DNA of 25,573 bases, taken from positions 1 through 25,573 of the IMG/VR virus record IMGVR_UViG_3300046491_000227. One strand, written 5' to 3'. Both the position numbers and the translations under genes were made by a program. Below the pieces are notes generated by a model. It was not told where the DNA came from. It did not search any database and worked only from the letters and a program-made list of their open reading frames with translations. This document shows positions 2,396-23,354 of this stretch, piece after piece. Position 1 is the stretch's first letter, and each line of letters opens with the position of its first letter. The stretch comes from a virus.

Positions 2396-3391
2396 TCAGA
2401 GTTCCAGCAGGATCTGGGCGCGCGGTCGAGTGCAAAGATGCAACGGGTTCGACTGCGCCTCTCCGGCCATGCCTTTGTTGAAGGGCAGCGGCTCGATCAT
2501 GCTGTAGTACGGAATGCCCTGAGTGTTGACCGTTTCCATGTAGTCAGCCGGGGCAAACACCGAGATGTACAGATCCGGCACGCCTTCGGGAACCAGCAGC
2601 GCCTTGTCGTCATGGACAAAGGAAACTCCGGCCACCTTGCCACGGTAGCGCTCCCAGATGATGCCGCCGAACTCGAAGCTTTCCCGGGCATCACCACGCA
2701 GCGCGGCCGCTTGCTGACTGTTGAGGTAGGTTTCTTTTACCGAAGGGTGGACGATGAACTTGTTCCAGAAGTTTTTACCGCAGAAGGCGCGCGAGCCAGT
2801 ACTGGTCACGCTACCCAACGCATCCTCCTGCATATCCAACGCCTCGCCGCATTGAACCCGCAGCTCAGTCTCTGGATCCGCCAGTCCCATGGACATCCTT
2901 TGACGCTTCACACCGAAGCGGTCATAGAGATCCAGCAGTACGGTTTTGCCATCGGCGTCGAGGATCTGGCCATTCAGTGCGCCCATACGCTGGAATTCGT
3001 GCGTGGCGTCCAACTGGCGCCGCGCCTTAGCCAGCCGCGCATTGACCACGTCCTGCACCGCTTGAAGTTCGGTACGAGTACCGAAGGCGCGAATGCCTTG
3101 GATCTCATCCGCCTTGATGGTGAAGCGCTCAGGCAGGTGCACGGTGTTGAACGGGATCAGGTTGCGCTTGCTGGCCGCGACCACCAGGCCAGAACCACCA
3201 CGCTCGCCAGCAGGCACCAGTGCCAGGGTGTCGCCGTCCTTTTCAATCTGCACGGTCAGGGTGGTAATGCCTTCCTCGCGAAACAGACCCAGAGCGCTGA
3301 TGCGCCCTGGCAGGTAGGGTTGATCATTAAGTGCAGCGGTCAGCGAGGTAACGGTAAACGCTTCGTCGTCAAAAATGGCGATATCGGCCAT
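2396..3391 (-). CDS. E: Major capsid protein, lambda gpE family
   Basis: This 331-residue protein matches the usual size of the Phage_cap_E family (lambda gpE is 341). Recognisable features are the N-terminal PYLPGRISALGLFREEGI segment, the central IPFNTVHLPERFTIKADEIQ, and the C-terminal substrate-like stretch ESFEFGGIIWERYRG followed by a QSNPLHLCTRPRAQILLEL tail. It forms the icosahedral shell with the decoration protein encoded just upstream. The ATG at 3391 (MADIAIFDDE) is preceded by GGAGAG. An upstream ATG at 3436 lies beyond a strong hairpin and is unlikely. The hairpin leader may help set the high expression a capsid needs. Confidence 0.95.
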   Translation of the reverse strand: MADIAIFDDEAFTVTSLTAALNDQPYLPGRISALGLFREEGITTLTVQIEKDGDTLALVPAGERGGSGLVVAASKRNLIPFNTVHLPERFTIKADEIQGIRAFGTRTELQAVQDVVNARLAKARRQLDATHEFQRMGALNGQILDADGKTVLLDLYDRFGVKRQRMSMGLADPETELRVQCGEALDMQEDALGSVTSTGSRAFCGKNFWNKFIVHPSVKETYLNSQQAAALRGDARESFEFGGIIWERYRGKVAGVSFVHDDKALLVPEGVPDLYISVFAPADYMETVNTQGIPYYSMIEPLPFNKGMAGEAQSNPLHLCTRPRAQILLEL

Positions 3392-3409
3392 GGGTACTCT
3401 CCAGAAACG

Positions 3410-3432
3410 AAAAATCCCGCACGCGGCGGGAT
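3410..3432 (-). terminator. Hairpin leader ahead of the capsid gene
   Basis: On the minus strand, ATCCCGC and GCGGGAT form a perfect 7-bp stem with a 5-nt loop, followed by a short T-run. The hairpin sits 22 nt before the capsid ATG and 22 nt after the decoration-protein stop. It is built and spaced like the hairpin at 300-322. It is probably an intercistronic partial terminator or an mRNA-stabilising element. Confidence 0.65.
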
Positions 3433-3454
3433 GCATATAAAAGAACGAAACGCG

Positions 3455-9628: not shown

Positions 9629-9949
9629 CTACTCGTCGACTTGAATACCTGCCTTCTTTGCCAAGAACCGGGTGTACAAACCACCGGCTACATCGGCACC
9701 AATCACCGCTATGACGATGCCCAATCCAGCAGCGAGGTATAGGTTGTTCCAGAGCGCCATCGCTAACAACAACGTCGCCATTCCCAGCAAGCCTGACGCG
9801 AGAAAACGTAACGCTACTCGCTGCAGGATCTGCCGTAACCCGAGGTCACTGCCTGATGCTCTAAGCATCTCCCCGGATAAGCCTGCCATGCTCAGCAGTA
9901 TCAGAAGCCAAAGGGGTACATCCGCGAGAGCTTGTTGCTCCGTGTTCAT
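9629..9949 (-). CDS. Phage holin, LydA/holin 3 superfamily-like
   Basis: This encodes 106 residues with three hydrophobic segments: ~11-27 (VPLWLLILLSMAGLSG), ~47-66 and ~70-90 (YLAAGLGIVIAVIGADVAGG). The C-terminus is short and charged (RFLAKKAGIQVDE). The size and three-segment layout match LydA-type holins common in Pseudomonas prophages. It would make inner-membrane lesions that release endolysin. No endolysin gene is next to it, so that gene is probably beyond the left edge with the tail genes. The ATG has GAGG 7 nt upstream. It is the first gene after the two terminators at 10.03-10.08 kb. Confidence 0.85.
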   Translation of the reverse strand: MNTEQQALADVPLWLLILLSMAGLSGEMLRASGSDLGLRQILQRVALRFLASGLLGMATLLLAMALWNNLYLAAGLGIVIAVIGADVAGGLYTRFLAKKAGIQVDE

Positions 9950-10028
9950 TTGTTGACCTCAAATAGGTTCCGGCCTCCATGTCACTGTCATCCGCTAAGA
10001 GCAAAGAGCCAGGCATGGGACCGAAAAC

Positions 10029-10054
10029 GAAAAAGCCCCGCACGAGGGCGGGGC
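10029..10054 (-). terminator. Terminator 2 upstream of holin
   Basis: AAGCCCCGC and GCGGGGCTT form a 9-bp stem with a 6-nt loop. On the minus strand it is followed by TTTTTCGTTTT. This is a strong intrinsic terminator for leftward transcription, lying between the cargo gene and the holin. Confidence 0.85.
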
Positions 10055-10061
10055 TTATAAA

Positions 10062-10098
10062 TTGGTATAAAAAACCCGACTCGATGGCCGGGTTTTGA
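10062..10098 (-). terminator. Terminator 1 upstream of holin
   Basis: AAAACCCG and CGGGTTTT form an 8-bp stem around a ~10-nt loop, with a T-run on the minus strand and a shorter one on the plus strand. In tandem with the next hairpin it would block leftward transcription. Late genes must then start below it or be antiterminated, as at lambda tR'. Confidence 0.8.
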
Positions 10099-10219
10099 AA
10101 GCGTCTCGCTGCGTTCACAGCAGTTCACGCTGCTATGAAACCAGAGTTATTCCGCGCGGAAAACTTTTATTTTCCGTTGCGTTCACTAATGACAACAAAA
10201 ATTTTCGCCAAGAACTCAC

Positions 10220-11743
10220 CTATATTGACTCAGAAATCTTCCCAGAAATTTCCTCACGCATTTCCTTGAGAGTATCTAATAGCGGGATCGGCCTGCCTCC
10301 TTTTTTTGAAAACTCTTGAATATGCATCTCAAAATTAAATTTCTGAGTGCGTGGATTAGAATCTATTTGCTTCGCACGCTCCAAGAACTCTACAAGCCCC
10401 ACCCTTCCGGCACTCACAAGATCCATCAATTCTTCAAATTCATGAATTGTCAGAAAGTACATATTCTCTATTGGAATTTGGTGATCTGACGAATAAGCGT
10501 TCCGAACTTTATCAAGCTCAGCAGCACCCACAACATTTGCGAACGCCATCCCATTTCCAACATATAACTCCTTATAAGTCACCACCAAAAGATAGTTATT
10601 AGCGCGCTGACAAATAACCGGGTTCTTTACGCTGGCTTTAGGTAATCTTGAAATGACTTCATGACCCTGCTCAAAGGCTTTCATCAGAGATGTTTTAACC
10701 GCTCGACGCATATCCATCTTTCGAACCGCGGCCATCCCCCCCTGAGCCATTTCCACACCCTTTGCATCGATAAGAACATTTGATTCGCCGTCCGCAATCA
10801 AAAAATCTATTACCCCTCCATCACCTGGGAGTTCTCTAATTAGCTCACTCTCTATCGCTGTTGGAAGCTTCGTTTTTTTTAGCCACTCCCCTACATACTT
10901 TTCAAAAGACTTTCCGAACGGGCCATTAAAAGCATTAACATCGTCCAATTTCAAAAAATCGAATACGAAATGTCCCAATGAACGATTCAGAACGGCAGGC
11001 GACACGCACCAATATTTACCGTCGACCTTGACTAAAGGAAATCTCAAAAAAGGGGTCTGATGTAGAAATTCCTCGGGGCTCCGCCCATCAGTATCGGCAT
11101 CCCTCAATGCTTTGTTTAAATCCTTTACATCGATTGAAATTGCTCGAAGATATGCATCAACGTCATACGCTTCAAATGGTGGACAAAGTGCAAAGAGATA
11201 GTCCCGACTTAAAATTCCGCCCTGACTTTCCACTGCGGCTAACAGCACAAACGAAATTCTAAGAAATGTTTCAACAGGTAGCCCGACTCGTTTCAAAAAA
11301 CGCGTTCTGAAATAATGATTGCTTGGAACTCTAGAAAAAATTAGTTCCTGCCTAGCCAAATCAACAAGCTTACCTTCTGCTTGATAAAAAAACTGCTGGT
11401 ATGCAAGAGCCCTCATAAAGAGTCGCAACTCTTCGTATTCATCAGGCATCTTATCACTATCAGTTAGTTCTAAGACTTTTTGCAGCAGCGCTAGGTACTG
11501 CGCACTACTAATGGAAGGTCGCGGTAAAAAACTATTAGCGAGCTCATCAGAGTAAACCCACTTTATTAGAAGCAACACTAGCCAAGGTTGTCGAGCAGCT
11601 TTGTCTTGTTTGTTTTTTGAAGGGGCGTAAAGATAACCAAGCGACGCATCCAATATGCTTAGGGGAAAATACTTTCTAAACTCACCCTGAATTTCTCGAA
11701 AGCCTTTTTCAAATGCCGCAAGCGACTCCATTGCCTTACTCAT
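10220..11743 (-). CDS. PD-(D/E)xK nuclease-like protein, candidate phage-encoded defence factor
   Basis: This encodes 507 residues from the ATG at 11743, with GGGGAG 4 nt upstream. The first ~270 residues are mainly helical with no family I recognise. Residues ~275-350 carry a PD-(D/E)xK core: FGKSFEKYVGEWL (Glu281/Glu286), GGVIDFLIADG (Asp313), VLIDAKG (Asp326-x-Lys328), then a helix. This is the metal-dependent nuclease signature. The C-terminal ~150 residues follow with mixed strands and helices. The gene is clearly AT-rich against its neighbours, ends before two terminators, and sits between Q and the holin, a common cargo slot. I infer a nuclease-based anti-phage or exclusion role. The target is unknown. 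Confidence 0.85.
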   Translation of the reverse strand: MSKAMESLAAFEKGFREIQGEFRKYFPLSILDASLGYLYAPSKNKQDKAARQPWLVLLLIKWVYSDELANSFLPRPSISSAQYLALLQKVLELTDSDKMPDEYEELRLFMRALAYQQFFYQAEGKLVDLARQELIFSRVPSNHYFRTRFLKRVGLPVETFLRISFVLLAAVESQGGILSRDYLFALCPPFEAYDVDAYLRAISIDVKDLNKALRDADTDGRSPEEFLHQTPFLRFPLVKVDGKYWCVSPAVLNRSLGHFVFDFLKLDDVNAFNGPFGKSFEKYVGEWLKKTKLPTAIESELIRELPGDGGVIDFLIADGESNVLIDAKGVEMAQGGMAAVRKMDMRRAVKTSLMKAFEQGHEVISRLPKASVKNPVICQRANNYLLVVTYKELYVGNGMAFANVVGAAELDKVRNAYSSDHQIPIENMYFLTIHEFEELMDLVSAGRVGLVEFLERAKQIDSNPRTQKFNFEMHIQEFSKKGGRPIPLLDTLKEMREEISGKISESI

Positions 11744-11770
11744 GCTGCTCCCCTCAACGCGATGAAAACG

Positions 11771-11800
11771 ATCCACGAAATGTACATTAAAATCGTGGAT
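11771..11800. repeat. Inverted repeat upstream of the nuclease-like gene
   Basis: ATCCACGA and TCGTGGAT are perfect 8-bp arms, 14 nt apart. They lie 28-57 bp upstream of the cargo gene's ATG and downstream of Q. An operator or a weak hairpin is possible. There is no T-run, so it is not a standard terminator. Confidence 0.5.
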
Positions 11801-11867
11801 AGATCGTCATTGGTTGAGGGTAAGCATTGGCTTTCAGCAATGGCGTATTTTAAGAACGCAATTTACA

Positions 11868-12257
11868 CTACGCGACCAAGTCGACATGGCTTATCGCGCA
11901 ATCGATCCAGGCTGATCCAGCCCTAACCAGTTCACGCGCCTTACCCTCACTTATGCCGTAGTGCCTACCGACTCTGACCATCGGCCACTTAGCACCAAAA
12001 TAGAGCCAAACTACATCTCCCATCTGCTGATCACGGTGCGCGAGTCTCGCAACGGCATGATCAATAGCTACAGCCCAATCATCAGTAATGCAATAATTTT
12101 TGGCTTCGGATACCTGCGCAATCGCCTGACGCATCAGAGCTAATGTTGGGGACGTATAGCCCGGCACCCCCATCCCATCCATCCTCCACCAGCCCCACTG
12201 CTCCAGTAAGTATTCGGTGTCTCCCAATGGTCGGCCAGCCGGCTTACGAATCATCAT
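11868..12257 (-). CDS. Antitermination protein Q-like
   Basis: This 129-residue protein fits the phage antitermination Q family (phi82-Q type) in length and pattern: an N-terminal DTEYLLEQWGWWRMDGMGVPG, a centre ITDDWAVAIDHAVARLAHRD, and a C-terminal helix-turn-helix-like VGRHYGISEGKARELVRAG. Q proteins load on polymerase at the late promoter and let it ignore terminators. Here that would open the holin-terminase-head-tail operon past the terminators at 10.03-10.08 kb. It is the last gene of the early block (O, P, nin-type genes), which is Q's place in lambda. ATG 12257 or 12254 may be used. Confidence 0.82.
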   Translation of the reverse strand: MMIRKPAGRPLGDTEYLLEQWGWWRMDGMGVPGYTSPTLALMRQAIAQVSEAKNYCITDDWAVAIDHAVARLAHRDQQMGDVVWLYFGAKWPMVRVGRHYGISEGKARELVRAGSAWIDCAISHVDLVA

Positions 12258-12261
12258 TCCT

Positions 12262-12582
12262 TCAATCCCCTGTGTAATTTGTGCCGCCCGCCCCCAGGCG
12301 GTTCGATCGTTCGTATTGGCTTTGTGTTTCGCTCATCAGCGGCGAACCTTTCAGCGCTGAAATTTCACGTTGAGCGTGCTGCAATTTGAAACTCAATTGA
12401 GTGACCAACTCGTCGGAAGAAAGGACCAACTTGCTCCCCCAAACAACCCAACCTGAGCCGTTGCAATCAGTGCAAACCAGCTCATAAAACAGCCCTTTCA
12501 CCACCGCGCTCCCCGCGCAGATCGAGCAAGGCTCCAGCTCGATCCGTTCTCGCTTAAAGCTAGGCACTCGCCCTTTTTGCAT
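12262..12582 (-). CDS. Small zinc-ribbon phage protein
   Basis: This encodes 106 residues. Cys19-x2-Cys22 (EPCSICAG) and Cys37-x2-Cys40 (VCTDCNGSGW) make a DnaJ-type zinc ribbon. The rest is helical (TQLSFKLQHAQREISALKG) with a polar tail. The function is unknown. Proteins of this sort occur in nin-type regions and are thought to bind nucleic acid or act as chaperone-like adaptors. The ATG lies inside the 3' end of the recombinase gene (23-bp overlap), with GAGG 9 nt upstream, so the two are probably coupled. Confidence 0.72.
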   Translation of the reverse strand: MQKGRVPSFKRERIELEPCSICAGSAVVKGLFYELVCTDCNGSGWVVWGSKLVLSSDELVTQLSFKLQHAQREISALKGSPLMSETQSQYERSNRLGAGGTNYTGD

Positions 12583-13867
12583 GTTTTGAAACCTCGTCTA
12601 TGGTTGTTTCTTCAATGGCCTTGCAGGCCTTATGGTCTGTGGCTTGCAGCGAATTACCGGAATCTTCAAATCTAAAGCCGGTCAATCCATGAATCGCTGC
12701 AAAGCCTTTCTGATCTAGATGCGCGTGCCACTGCTCGAGGGCATCACGCTTGCGGCTCATCACGTCCGACTGGATGTACACCTTCACGTTGTGCCCCATC
12801 GCGTGGTTGATCAGCAGCTCGCCAATCAGGTGGTCGATGCCGAGATCTGCCCAGCCAGTGCGCGCCACCTTGCGCAGGTCGTGACTGGTCCACTCGCCCT
12901 GCCCCAACCGACGAAACACGGCGCAGCCCTGAGCCTCGCCCAGCGCCTTGCCGTTGCGCGCCGGGAACAGGCACTGGCCTTCATAGCCTCGGGCGTACTG
13001 ACCTTCGCGGTACCGCGTCAGTAGCGTGCACACCTGCTCGGTCAGGGGCAGGTGATGCTCGACACCGGTTTTCGTGTTTTCGGCCGGGATGAACCATTCG
13101 CGTTCGGCCAGGCTGATGTGCGACCAGCGCGCCATCCGGGTTTCACCGATCCGCGTGCCATGGAAGAGCATCATCAGTGCGAGCATCGAATCCAGCGGCG
13201 CGATGCTCATAACTTCGGCCAGTTGCCCGAGCAGGCCTTCCAACTGAACGCCGCGCAGACGGGACGGCTTGATGCCGACCTTTGCCTTAGAGAAGTCGTT
13301 GAACCGGATCGCTGCCATCGGGTTGGGCGTGATCATCCCCAGCTTGGCCGCCTGCCGGAATGACAAGGCCAACAGCTGAAACGCGGAACGCACGTAGTCG
13401 ATGGAAACCGTCTCCTGCAGCGGCCACATCAGCAGGGTGTCGAGAGCGGCCTTGTCGATGCCGATCAGGGGCAGCTCGCCGAGGCGCGGTTTCAGGTGGC
13501 ACTTGATGATCGAGGCGCCGGTGTTTTTGCGTTTGGTCGACAGATTGCGATCGCGCGACATGCGATCAGCGAACCAGTCCAGCAGTTCGCCAACAGCCTT
13601 CCACTTCGACAGGCTCGCGCCCTCCCCGGCGGCCAGACGCAGCCGAAGCGACGGCAGCGCCGCTACAACCTGTTTGTGAGTCAGCTCGGGGAACGTGCCG
13701 ATGGGATTCCACTTTCCCTTCAACACCAGGTACCACGAGCCACCGGTTCGAGCCTTGTTGAAGCGCAGGTAAAGGCCCTTATTCTCGATGTCGCGTAAGT
13801 CCTTTACGGTGCCGGCCACTTGGCGCTTGATCTCAGCTTCGGTGATCTTCACCGCGGCGGTACTCAT
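12560..13867 (-). CDS. Tyrosine recombinase/integrase internal to the early region
   Basis: This encodes 435 residues from the ATG at 13867, which overlaps the upstream stop as ATGA. The N-terminal ~80 residues resemble the DUF4102-like arm-binding domain of P4-type integrases. A SAM-like core-binding domain follows (~85-190). The catalytic set is complete: Arg239 (FHGTRIGETR), Lys266 (NTKTG), His329-x2-Arg332 (TSHDLRK), His355 (NHAMGH) and Tyr364 (VKVYIQ). It sits in the nin-like region, far from the prophage end, while a separate integrase begins at 25545. It may resolve dimers, invert or excise a segment, or be a captured second integrase. Confidence 0.9.
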   Translation of the reverse strand: MSTAAVKITEAEIKRQVAGTVKDLRDIENKGLYLRFNKARTGGSWYLVLKGKWNPIGTFPELTHKQVVAALPSLRLRLAAGEGASLSKWKAVGELLDWFADRMSRDRNLSTKRKNTGASIIKCHLKPRLGELPLIGIDKAALDTLLMWPLQETVSIDYVRSAFQLLALSFRQAAKLGMITPNPMAAIRFNDFSKAKVGIKPSRLRGVQLEGLLGQLAEVMSIAPLDSMLALMMLFHGTRIGETRMARWSHISLAEREWFIPAENTKTGVEHHLPLTEQVCTLLTRYREGQYARGYEGQCLFPARNGKALGEAQGCAVFRRLGQGEWTSHDLRKVARTGWADLGIDHLIGELLINHAMGHNVKVYIQSDVMSRKRDALEQWHAHLDQKGFAAIHGLTGFRFEDSGNSLQATDHKACKAIEETTIDEVSKHAKRASA

Positions 13868-14166
13868 GCGGCCCCCTTCACGGTGAGAATTCCAGCCCTG
13901 ATCAGGGCTTCGTGGGTTTCGGCGATGGCGCGCGGCACGTCCTGCCAGTCGATCTCGCCGGCGGCGCGGCCGTCGATCACGTCGTGGCAAGCGCTGCACG
14001 CGTACACCGCCACGGTGTCAAAGCCCTTCATGCCCATGCCCTTCTGCCCGCAAGGCAGATGCGCGAGGACGGTGGTTTCTGGATTGTGATTGCAGATGCT
14101 TGGCATCCGGACGGTGCACTCTTGGCCAATGGCCGAGGCGCGAAGCTTCTTCGAGCTCACTCGCAT
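13864..14166 (-). CDS. YbcO/DUF1364-like putative nuclease
   Basis: This 100-residue protein matches the YbcO/DUF1364 family: SSKKLRASAIGQECTVRMPS, then CNHNPETTVLAHLPCGQKG, and ACSACHDVIDGR. Cys17, Cys25, His36, Cys57 and Cys60-His61 form the metal and HNH-like site. Family members lie in nin regions of lambdoid phages and are thought to act on recombination or replication intermediates. It overlaps the 3' end of the gene before it by 10 bp and the recombinase by ATGA, so the cluster is one operon. Activity is inferred, not seen. Confidence 0.88.
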   Translation of the reverse strand: MRVSSKKLRASAIGQECTVRMPSICNHNPETTVLAHLPCGQKGMGMKGFDTVAVYACSACHDVIDGRAAGEIDWQDVPRAIAETHEALIRAGILTVKGAA

Positions 14167-20369: not shown

Positions 20370-20698
20370 ATGGCCAAGACTGGACAAGAGCGATCAGCGA
20401 AGGCTGCCGGGAAACGGATCGAGCACGACGAGAAGGAGTTGCGGCACGGGTTACGGCTGGGCACTCGGCAGAAGCTTGAAGGGTTGAGGCCTGGAACGAT
20501 ATCGAGGAAATCAACGAGGCAGTGCAGAACCTCATTGTGAACGCTCACGCGCTCGGACCCACCCTCTCCTGCCAAGCGATGGAAAGTCCGCGCCACAAAG
20601 TTCAGATAAGCGAAAACGTGGCGCGGATGTTTCGGAATGAGAGTTTGTCCGAGTTGAAAGCAGTCCGAGGGGACGAAATTATTGAACCTTGCTCTTGA
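20370..20698 (+). pseudogene. Frameshifted paralogue of the 18944 gene
   Basis: From ATG 20370 the frame reads MAKTGQERSAKAAGKRIEHD and on to QKLEGL, then leaves frame at ~20484-20490 and stops after 50 codons. Read one base over from 20489, it continues AWNDIEEINEAVQNLIVNAH, ALGPTLSC, then PRHKVQISENVARMFRNESL to a TGA at 20696. Restoring one T (TTGATGGCC for TTGAGGCC) would give one ~109-residue protein alike in order to the gene at 18944. A one-base deletion is the simple reading. A sequencing error or programmed shift is possible; no slippery site is seen. Its 3' end overlaps the DUF5677 gene. Confidence 0.85.
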
Positions 20699-21398
20699 TC
20701 TGCTCAAGACCTTTTATAGAAAGAGTTAAACATTGCGCAACTAAACTCAATGTAAAAATCAGCTGCTCTTTGGTCGGCCCCATATATAAGGAGTATCCGT
20801 TTGTTTCTTCGATAAATGACCTATCTAGAGAACGAAATGTCGCGTGACCGGCCAAGGAAGAAAGCCCTCGATAGGCAACGCTGTATAGATCTAACATTCC
20901 TGCCGCTGTCGCTGAGCTATGCACTGAATAGGTTTGGCCCGCTCGCGTATCAACAATTTCCTTCAGGTGTTTTTTATTTATTTCAGATAGCTGATCTAGG
21001 GGAATATCTGCCAGAATGGCTCTAGCCTGTTTTACGTCTTCCTTGTCATTGTGAGAATCGAGTTTTTCAAAAATCGAAGGGTCGACGATAAGTGCAGATG
21101 CGTGAAAGAGTGTTTCGTACGCGGTTCTAAGAAGTACCTGTGCCTCTTGTACCATTCCTATTTCGCATAAACGAATTGCGGCTTGAGATGTTCGAATGGT
21201 TCTCTCGAAAAACAAAAACGAGCACAACATAGCCTTATCACTGCCGCTAACACCTGTGTTTAGTAGAAGTATTTGGGCTTGATTAGATATCCGCTCGCAA
21301 TCTGAAAAACCGCCGGCGTATTCCTCCCTAATCACGGCCCTATGCTCGTAAACATAGTCAGATAAAAATCCTTTCTCATCAAAATCCCTAGCAGACAT
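20679..21398 (-). CDS. DUF5677-like protein, candidate cargo gene
   Basis: This encodes 239 residues from the ATG at 21398, with GGAG 7 nt upstream. It is almost all helical. The core SFLFFERTIRTSQAAIRLCE, then MVQEAQVLLRTAYETLFHAS, follows the DUF5677 pattern of paired helices with a conserved R-x-x-x-E. The end is LIFTLSLVAQCLTLSIKGLE. Function of the family is unknown; members often sit in mobile or defence-like islands. The gene is AT-rich against the adjacent methyltransferase, from which it diverges, and overlaps the pseudogene's end. It is likely lysogeny-expressed cargo. Confidence 0.8.
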   Translation of the reverse strand: MSARDFDEKGFLSDYVYEHRAVIREEYAGGFSDCERISNQAQILLLNTGVSGSDKAMLCSFLFFERTIRTSQAAIRLCEIGMVQEAQVLLRTAYETLFHASALIVDPSIFEKLDSHNDKEDVKQARAILADIPLDQLSEINKKHLKEIVDTRAGQTYSVHSSATAAGMLDLYSVAYRGLSSLAGHATFRSLDRSFIEETNGYSLYMGPTKEQLIFTLSLVAQCLTLSIKGLEQIKSKVQ

Positions 21399-21484
21399 TA
21401 GCCAACTCCACTTTCTCAATCGTTCAATACATCGTACACAAATACCCCACTTCTACGAATCACGCCAGCCGGCGAGGATCCCCT

Positions 21485-22420
21485 ATGGAAATCGAATACG
21501 GCTCCGTCTGCTCTGGCATCGAGGCGGCAACGCTTGCATGGAAGCCGCTCGGCATGCGGGCGACCTGGTTCGCCGAGATCGAAGCGTTCCCAAGCGCCGT
21601 GCTGGCTCACCACTACCCGAACACGCCGAACCTCGGCGACATGACCAAACTCGGCGCCCAGGTGCTGGCCGGCAAGATCGCCGCACCTGACGTCCTTGTC
21701 GGCGGCACCCCGTGCCAGGCCTTCAGCGTTGCCGGGATGCGCGAAGGGCTCACCGACCCGCGCGGCGCCCTCACCATCAAATACGTGGAGCTCGCAGATG
21801 CAGTTGACTATGTTCGAGCAGGCCAACGAAAGCCGCCCTGCGTCATCGTCTGGGAAAACGTCCCCGGCGTCCTCAGCGACAAAGGGAACGCCTTCGGATG
21901 CTTTCTTGGCGCGCTTGCTGGGGAAGACTGCGAACTGCAGCCTTCAGGGAAGAAATGGCCGGACGCTGGTTGTGTGTATGGACCCAAAAGAACAATCGCG
22001 TGGCGGATCCTGGACGCCCAATATTTCAGCCTGGCCCAACGACGCCGCCGTGTGTTCGTTGTCGCAAGTGCTCGAGACGGATTCGATCCCACCGAGGTAC
22101 TTTTTGAGCGCGAAGGCCCTCGCAGGGATCGGCCGCCGGGATGGCCAGAGAAGCTCGCAGTTCATCCTACTCTCACGGCACAAGGGGGTGGCTCTCTCGA
22201 TGACAGAGAGGCATATGTATTGGAGTCCGAAGGTGTTCGAAGAACCAGTGTGATTGAGTGGGAGCGGTGCCAAGGGTTTTTCGATAATTACACGAAAATT
22301 CCATGGCAGGGAAAACCATCCGAGGAATGTCCGGACGGCCCGCGCTACAAGGCAATCGGGAACAGTAAAGCTGTTGCCATAGTGCACTGGCTTGGACGCA
22401 GGATACTCTGTTACTTATGA
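21485..22420 (+). CDS. C5-cytosine DNA methyltransferase
   Basis: This encodes 311 residues. Motif I is GSVCSGIEAATLA (6-18), motif IV GGTPCQAFSVAG with Cys77, motif VI ENVPG (124-128), motif VIII QRRRRVF (185-191), and motif X RYKAIGNSKAV (287-297). It should move a methyl group from SAM to C5 of cytosine in a short DNA site. The recognition part (~205-255) is short. Motif IX is odd: EWERCQGFFD, where ECERLQGFPD is usual. From ~22120 the DNA becomes less GC-rich, as if the 3' third had been replaced. The 3' end overlaps the HNH endonuclease by 10 bp, tail to tail. ATG follows GAGG by 7 nt. Confidence 0.92.
   Translation: MEIEYGSVCSGIEAATLAWKPLGMRATWFAEIEAFPSAVLAHHYPNTPNLGDMTKLGAQVLAGKIAAPDVLVGGTPCQAFSVAGMREGLTDPRGALTIKYVELADAVDYVRAGQRKPPCVIVWENVPGVLSDKGNAFGCFLGALAGEDCELQPSGKKWPDAGCVYGPKRTIAWRILDAQYFSLAQRRRRVFVVASARDGFDPTEVLFEREGPRRDRPPGWPEKLAVHPTLTAQGGGSLDDREAYVLESEGVRRTSVIEWERCQGFFDNYTKIPWQGKPSEECPDGPRYKAIGNSKAVAIVHWLGRRILCYL
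21798..22253 (+). CDS. Possible overprinted gene inside the methyltransferase
   Basis: This frame, +1 to the methyltransferase, is open for 151 codons from MQLTMFEQANESRPASSSGK. It contains SWTPNISAWPNDAAVCSLSQ, VLETDSIPPRYFLSAKALAGI. From memory, phage proteins with an order like S-L-S-x-V-L-E-T-G-x-x-P-x-R-Y-F-L-S-x-K-A exist as annotated genes; that was not checked. After ~22130 the likeness fades, at the point where the base composition of the methyltransferase changes. No good ribosome site was seen, so it may also be a preserved shadow frame. Confidence 0.35.
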   Translation: MQLTMFEQANESRPASSSGKTSPASSATKGTPSDAFLARLLGKTANCSLQGRNGRTLVVCMDPKEQSRGGSWTPNISAWPNDAAVCSLSQVLETDSIPPRYFLSAKALAGIGRRDGQRSSQFILLSRHKGVALSMTERHMYWSPKVFEEPV

Positions 22421-23217
22421 GCCAGCCGCTTAACAATAACCTCTTTGATGTCCATATACACTTCCAATCCCGCACGCATATGGGCATGCACCGCAGAGTG
22501 ACAATTAGAACAAAGTAATGCGAGATCTTCTAACACCACTGCCCTTTTCGCCGGGACTGCAGAAATTGGAATCTTATGATGCGCCTCGATATATTCGACC
22601 CCGTATCGAATATTAAAATCTTCCTTGCAAATTTCACAGATGTAAGACTTTGTCGATTTCAGCAGCGTAACTATTTGAGTGTTACGCTCCGATAACAAAT
22701 GGGTAACATATTTTTTACCACCTTCCATAAAGCCTTGGCCGACCTTTTCTAAAAGTGCAGATGCTGCGGCACGGCGACCTAAAACGACATATTCGTCGGA
22801 GCACTCGACCAAGCTGAATACACCTTCCAAAACCCAATTGCTTTTTCGCTCGCTGTAAAGAACCACTGGATAACCAAACTCGGGCTGATTCAGTAAAGCA
22901 AGATTTGCCTTTTCTTTTAGCGACACTACCCCTTTTCGAGCCTTAAACGAATAGCGATAAAGATCTTTTTCAGTGTCCTGCCAACCATCATGGCTATAAC
23001 TACCGGACCGAACCTTAACCAAAACTCCCGCAAGGGAAGGAAGCGATCCAACCCAATTTATACCTTGTTGAGGAGTATTATTAATAATCAGGCCTTCACC
23101 ACTCCAATACTCAGACCCCGGCACCTTCGAATATTGAATGAGATCATATAACTCCCTCTTCGAAACAACTGAACCAATTTGAGCATTAAGCAGATCGTGA
23201 AAACTCATCTTCGCCAT
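22411..23217 (-). CDS. HNH endonuclease with N-terminal SRA/McrA-like recognition domain
   Basis: This encodes 268 residues from the ATG at 23217 (AAGGA 5 nt upstream). The C-terminal HNH/McrA nuclease (~190-250) has Cys194-x2-Cys197, His213-His214 (EAHHKIPI), Cys236-x2-Cys239-His240 (LLCSNCHSAVH) as zinc and active-site residues. Residues ~40-150 (GVLVKVRSGSYSHDGW, DLYRYSFKARKG, NLALLNQPEFGYPVVLYSER) resemble the SRA-like domain of HNH restriction enzymes. It is AT-rich and converges on the C5 methyltransferase. The pair reads as a restriction-modification system, or as a modification-dependent nuclease beside a methyltransferase. Confidence 0.85.
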   Translation of the reverse strand: MAKMSFHDLLNAQIGSVVSKRELYDLIQYSKVPGSEYWSGEGLIINNTPQQGINWVGSLPSLAGVLVKVRSGSYSHDGWQDTEKDLYRYSFKARKGVVSLKEKANLALLNQPEFGYPVVLYSERKSNWVLEGVFSLVECSDEYVVLGRRAAASALLEKVGQGFMEGGKKYVTHLLSERNTQIVTLLKSTKSYICEICKEDFNIRYGVEYIEAHHKIPISAVPAKRAVVLEDLALLCSNCHSAVHAHMRAGLEVYMDIKEVIVKRLAHK

Positions 23218-23354
23218 AGTCATCCTTTGCATATATCACCGTTTTCCAATCTTTGAGTATGGCACTGCCGGTCCACAGCACAAGGCAACGGTCAAACCTT
23301 CATCTCAGCACCCCCCCCTCCACCGCCCGGGCGTGCCCCGGCATAGGACGCCCC

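Follow-up and report, generated by a model that had tools for sequence, protein, structure and literature searches.

A GapS1-family gene carried as cargo between the Q and holin genes of a temperate phage

Between Q and the lysis gene of the phage studied here lies an AT-rich reading frame of 507 codons, which the initial annotation read as prophage cargo, a nuclease-based factor for defence or superinfection exclusion. The locus raises two questions: to which family does the protein belong, and does it serve the phage itself or the bacterium in which the prophage resides?

The window, by which the whole analysed stretch of DNA is meant, is a linear IMG/VR virus record of 25,573 bp. It encodes a CI/S24 repressor, a tyrosine integrase, O- and P-like replication genes, Q and a holin, together with lambda-type head and packaging genes (terminase, portal, decoration D and a capsid E homologue at 2396–3436), and is a temperate phage. 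The host is probably Pseudomonas, because the nearest bacterial relatives of the 507-residue protein are found in hosts of that type. The tyrosine integrase gene (12560–13999) is part of the operon, with the P-like/HNH genes on one side and Q on the other, unlike the integrase of lambda at the prophage end; the same order is seen in three other phages (L196, L197 and L198). Elsewhere in the window a C5-cytosine methyltransferase gene (21485–22420, plus strand, PF00145) is convergent with an AT-rich HNH nuclease gene (22411–23232, minus strand) with which it overlaps by 10 bp. The HNH nuclease gives weak matches to ZorE and type IV restriction enzymes, and the pair (21485–23232) is a possible restriction-modification-like system or second defence cargo. 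A DUF5677 protein (20679–21419) near the methyltransferase lies in a further AT-rich stretch (GC about 0.44) and has no PHROG match.

The gapS1 gene and its protein family

The gene is read from an ATG at position 11743 on the minus strand to a stop codon at 10220–10222, exactly the span first assigned to it. Many stops interrupt the plus strand over the same interval, and GAGGGGAG lies just 5' of the ATG. The frame is intact and under purifying selection, with dN/dS values against relatives of 0.08–0.15. Its GC content is 0.425 (GC3 0.39) against a mean of 0.56 over the window, of which it forms the 1524-bp segment lowest in GC; a composition unlike that of the flanking phage genes had been remarked from the outset.

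By profile match the protein is assigned to the named anti-phage family GapS1. NCBIfam model NF047931 (antiphage_GapS1) is aligned from end to end (model positions 1–455 of 455) with 446.6 bits (446.7 in a repeat search; E 1e-133), above the curated cut-off of 320 bits. PHROG 14259, a family with no assigned function, also matches (E 4e-51). The Pfam search returned no name, just a weak hint of an SfsA RE-domain (E 0.018), and the PADLOC search returned no match, so these two resources alone would leave the protein unnamed. The N-terminal residues, about 270 of them, had been described as belonging to no recognised family; this is corrected here, as they form part of GapS1 and resemble a region of Upx (see below). 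The protein is a new, phage-borne branch of a family already known for defence.

Conservation was assessed in an alignment of 40 GapS1 relatives from phages, plasmids, viral contigs and bacterial genomes, 19–98% identical to the window protein. The residues predicted to form a PD-(D/E)xK site, namely D313, D326-x-K328 and a glutamate in the preceding helix, had been picked out in the initial annotation, and all are invariant or nearly so. Two further glutamates, E298 (40/40) and E331 (39/40), are likewise kept, and the N-terminal part has its own invariant positions (W54, Q117, Q121, R131 and F149). Since the motif residues are near-invariant across the 40 relatives, they are predicted to be the family active site. 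The coding features are as follows.

10220–11743, minus strand: gapS1 coding sequence, NF047931 and PHROG 14259 matches as above, dN/dS about 0.1
10940–11743, minus strand: N-terminal helical region and winged-helix-like part, residues 1–268
10635–10939, minus strand: predicted PD-(D/E)xK nuclease core, approximately residues 269–370
10901–10903, minus strand: E281 codon, Glu of the preceding helix, 39/40
10805–10807, minus strand: D313 codon, predicted first acidic metal-binding residue, 40/40
10760–10768, minus strand: D326-A-K328 codons, D or E at 326 in 40/40 and K at 328 in 40/40
10667–10669, minus strand: Q359 codon, helix after the core, 39/40

The gene also stands alone. It is the sole ORF between Q and holin in the window and in three related phages (L160, L018 and L114); a fourth (L008) has one extra ORF of 96 codons on the opposite strand. 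More widely, GapS1 relatives are flanked by varied neighbours with no obligate partner, as in a single-protein system. Full-length match, single-protein architecture and PD-(D/E)xK motif are thus the points of likeness to GapS1 as defined by NF047931. The window copy differs from the founding GapS1 (Mahata et al. 2024, doi 10.1038/s41564-024-01840-5) in its place, which is the Q–holin slot of a temperate phage with lambda-type head genes and not a Gamma-Mobile-Trio island.

The Q–holin interval as a cargo site

The borders and contents of the interval in the window are listed below.

9629–9949, minus strand: holin, right border of the slot (PF16085, E 2.3e-23)
9950–10179, minus strand: conserved pre-holin block with tandem intrinsic terminators at 10033–10056 and 10071–10096 (terminator scan, inverted repeats)
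10180–11867, no strand assigned: variable cargo segment, from the Q stop codon to the conserved pre-holin block
11744–11826, minus strand: gapS1 leader hairpin over the ribosome-binding site and start (inverted repeat 11771–11778 / 11793–11800; outer arms 11751–11758 / 11813–11820)
11868–12257, minus strand: Q-like antiterminator, left border of the slot (PF06530, E 5.2e-10; PHROG 79)

A search of viral contigs for relatives of Q and the holin yielded 83 distinct Q-to-holin intervals, ranging in length from 254 bp to 3651 bp. The shortest (L136) is empty: its conserved pre-holin block begins no more than about 30 bp after Q. In the remaining slots there are 138 ORFs of 70 codons or more, some of them surely spurious, that fall into 84 clusters, usually with one large gene to a slot. 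Cargo has a GC content of 0.449 against 0.575 for the flanks and is the lower of the two in 81 of 81 comparisons. In the 82 cases with cargo the longest ORF has the orientation of the phage genes 52 times and the reverse orientation 30 times. GapS1 occupies five of the 83 slots (the window, L160, L008, L114 and L018), a fraction that is not an occupancy estimate, the sample being a non-random one of best-scoring relatives. Fragments of GapS1 were also found at three contig ends (L019, L142 and L144).

Several slots carry cargo that could be named, some of it known defence genes: DzbA of Dazbog (E 5e-139), ApeA, an OLD-like ATPase-TOPRIM protein, PARIS/PtuA-like ATPases, NsnA/PD-T4-2, a NACHT protein and KAP NTPases. 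Others hold a MerR regulator or an astacin protease, which are not defence-like, and the slot is therefore best described as a general cargo site that is rich in defence genes. In one interval (L154:2385–4738) DzbA is followed by a second ORF of 391 codons. Three large cargo families recur, with five, four and six members (L123, L036 and L098, respectively), and have an orientation opposite to that of the phage genes. The first has no PADLOC match and the second is a KAP-type NTPase; all three are candidates for new defence genes.

With its variable slot, its absence from relatives and its distinct composition, gapS1 is an accessory (moron or cargo) gene, and the placement in a cargo slot originally suggested for it holds. 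The neighbourhood survey also removes a core replication or lytic gene from consideration, through the 5/83 distribution and the empty slot; in the related phages gapS1 is not a core replication gene.

A block of approximately 230 bp containing the tandem terminators precedes the holin in 83 of 83 slots, the empty one included, although in the most distant intervals it is recognised in part only. The terminators are therefore those of the phage and not of the cargo, contrary to the initial annotation, which had assigned them to gapS1. Their position recalls that of the Q-controlled terminator of lambda, and they may be tR'-like. The upstream inverted repeat, also regarded as the gene's own, is real, but it forms the tip of a longer leader hairpin and is confined to a lineage of three close phages (the window, L196 and L197). 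This hairpin has a dG of -41.6 (z -4.69; none of 200 shuffles was as stable) and pairs the ribosome-binding site. As it is absent from relatives of 67–72% identity, it may act as a translational control particular to this lineage and not be a feature of the family. No sigma-70-like promoter was found upstream of gapS1.

Such a hairpin would restrict how much of a toxic product is translated, as might be expected if gapS1 were one half of a toxin–antitoxin-like addiction pair, or a decayed remnant, with no present role in defence. The intact and selectively constrained frame, the retention of the full catalytic residue set and the lack of a second gene in the slot all argue against this, and we consider it extremely improbable.

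Outside the slot, a scan of bacterial genomes with the single sequence gave no match to gapS1 relatives; an alignment-based scan found 25 GapS1 loci. Chromosomal copies occur in Pseudomonas, Pseudoalteromonas, Shewanella, Planctomycetota, Chloroflexota and Cloacimonadota, with neighbours that include BrxA, PglZ, PifA, an RT and integrases. Other carriers are Klebsiella P2-like phages, where the gene lies beside the integrase, plasmids and an integrative conjugative element (ICE). A 46-protein tree places the window copy with the four slot-borne phage copies in one group (support 100/99), which joins the chromosomal copies of Pseudomonas (support 100/100). Exchange of the genes between phages and chromosomes would be expected to give such a pattern. 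One sequence in the tree, from a record named 'Bacteriophage sp.' (L004, MT837992.1), lies at branch length 0 beside a chromosomal copy of Pseudomonas proteolytica (L177) and is possibly a bacterial contig labelled as phage. Two further matches (L182:6001–7150 and L218:5001–6263) contain internal stops or shifts with no single open frame, and are possibly decayed copies or sequencing errors.

These observations bear on whether gapS1 might be a nuclease for the phage's own lytic programme, acting in host DNA degradation, recombination or packaging. The gene lies before the holin on the strand of the replication and late genes, and read-through, early or late, could transcribe it. Against such a role stand its scarcity among the slots and absence from an otherwise intact empty one, the presence of relatives in unrelated phages, plasmids and chromosomes, an AT-rich composition that departs from the flanks, and the opposite orientation of other slot cargo in 30 of 82 cases. 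A lytic function is accordingly judged very unlikely.

Predicted fold and likeness to Upx

A full-length AlphaFold2 model, built with the 40-sequence alignment, has a pLDDT of 88.9 and a pTM of 0.89. In the model E281 lies within a helix (residues 269–291), D313 is adjacent to a strand (314–318), and D326 and K328 are at the end of a second strand (321–328); a further helix (353–369) completes the core. Both the α/β fold and the residue set of a PD-(D/E)xK enzyme are present in this model, and metal-dependent nucleic acid cleavage is predicted. The HMM and structure searches proposed in the initial annotation have thus returned the NF047931 match and a predicted PD-(D/E)xK fold.

Structural matches from Foldseek and VIA are mainly to PD-(D/E)xK enzymes, among them Upx, BspD6I, FokI, HindIII, Can2, McrC, Hjc, LmuA and Shedu. 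The nicking enzyme N.BspD6I matches with a Z-score of 10.7 over 168 residues (3.4 Å), and FokI with 8.2. No viral model was matched by Foldseek at E ≤ 0.001.

The best Foldseek match is Upx (PDB 9wuf; E 5.7e-6, probability 1.00), which we take to be the PD-(D/E)xK protein that Gao et al. 2020 reported as a defence system. VIA aligns GapS1 residues 1–436 with Upx residues 763–1269 (Z 9.8). When residues 1–268 were modelled and searched alone (AlphaFold2 pLDDT 87.3), Upx again came first, with a Z-score of 12.1 over 241 of the 268 residues (5.2 Å; Upx residues 763–1112). The next match had a Z-score of 7.2, and later ones mainly cover a winged-helix-like piece at approximately residues 150–260 (Z up to 7). 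The fold common to the two proteins therefore takes in the helical part as well as the nuclease. With 1212 residues resolved, Upx has more than twice the length of GapS1, and its extra N-terminal half of about 760 residues is not present in the 507 residues of GapS1. In terms of these models, GapS1 resembles the C-terminal part of Upx in free-standing form. The likeness is stated at the level of the fold because sequence searches among PDB chains (phmmer and profile) do not reach Upx or any other chain. A sequence match to PDB 5wjb was discarded, as it looks like a chance coiled-coil or scaffold match.

The closeness of the fold to type IIS and nicking enzymes, and a winged-helix-like region that in the model could bind DNA, are what would be expected if GapS1 defended by direct, restriction-like cutting of incoming DNA, with no structural-protein trigger and no halt of the host. 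N.BspD6I and FokI do share the nuclease fold, but they are 11–13% identical to GapS1 and their DNA-recognition domain is not common to it; sequence-specific cutting is unsupported for GapS1. The slot also holds no partner methyltransferase, and self-DNA would need other protection. The founding GapS1 of Vibrio reportedly responds to a capsid protein by inducing dormancy, which likewise speaks against simple restriction. Direct cutting of this kind appears unlikely, though it deserves some weight.

Proposed function and wider meaning

With good confidence, gapS1 is read as a prophage-borne, single-protein anti-phage system, by which a lysogen would be defended against superinfection through dormancy or abortive infection. 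Membership of the GapS1 family, the conserved PD-(D/E)xK site, the nuclease-like predicted fold and the defence-bearing slot support the defence reading, and with it the nuclease-based factor first envisaged. Given its family, the protein very likely shields the lysogen against other phages.

Assuming that the gene is expressed, the lysogen would make GapS1 at a low level limited by translation, the ribosome-binding site being held within the stable leader hairpin, and the protein would be kept inactive. On infection by another phage, the N-terminal region or the whole protein may sense a phage component. The triggered nuclease would then cut nucleic acid, be it phage DNA, host DNA or RNA; growth would halt and the incoming phage would fail. 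GapS1 relatives vary widely and may not all respond to the same trigger. In lytic growth the prophage would have to keep its own capsid from triggering GapS1. Avoidance of autoimmunity by a prophage-encoded sensor of structural proteins has been studied for Tha in Staphylococcus (PMC11087260).

A GAPS1-like protein is known from the Klebsiella prophage ST437-OXA245phi4.1 (PMC12774648), and according to a meeting report GAPS1 of K. pneumoniae protects against many phages (PMC12908700); these reports lend independent support to a defence role for the family. The copy in ST437-OXA245phi4.1 belongs to the same family and is likewise prophage cargo, but it is 27% identical to the window protein and occupies another cargo site, beside the integrase of a P2-like phage.

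The less documented parts of this analysis are the Q–holin slot as a defence-rich cargo site and the structural link between GapS1 and Upx. In the literature searched, of which coverage was partial, no paper describing the interval as a hotspot was found, which is weak evidence of absence, and no description of the Upx link was found there either. We hold, with somewhat more confidence than doubt, two views: that the Q–holin interval is a general and so far little-noticed defence hotspot in many temperate phages of the Pseudomonas type, which form a large group, and that its single-gene cargoes, dozens of them unnamed, are candidate new defence systems; and that GapS1 is the free-standing sensor-plus-nuclease half of Upx.

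If the second view is true, two separately named defence families would be united, and the Upx match suggests an N-terminal module common to both. If GapS1 senses capsids, a phage that encodes GapS1 alongside its own capsid would provide a clean test of how autoimmunity is avoided. The genomic place of gapS1 matters more than the gene itself. The slot survey leads to dozens of further cargo genes that are worth testing.
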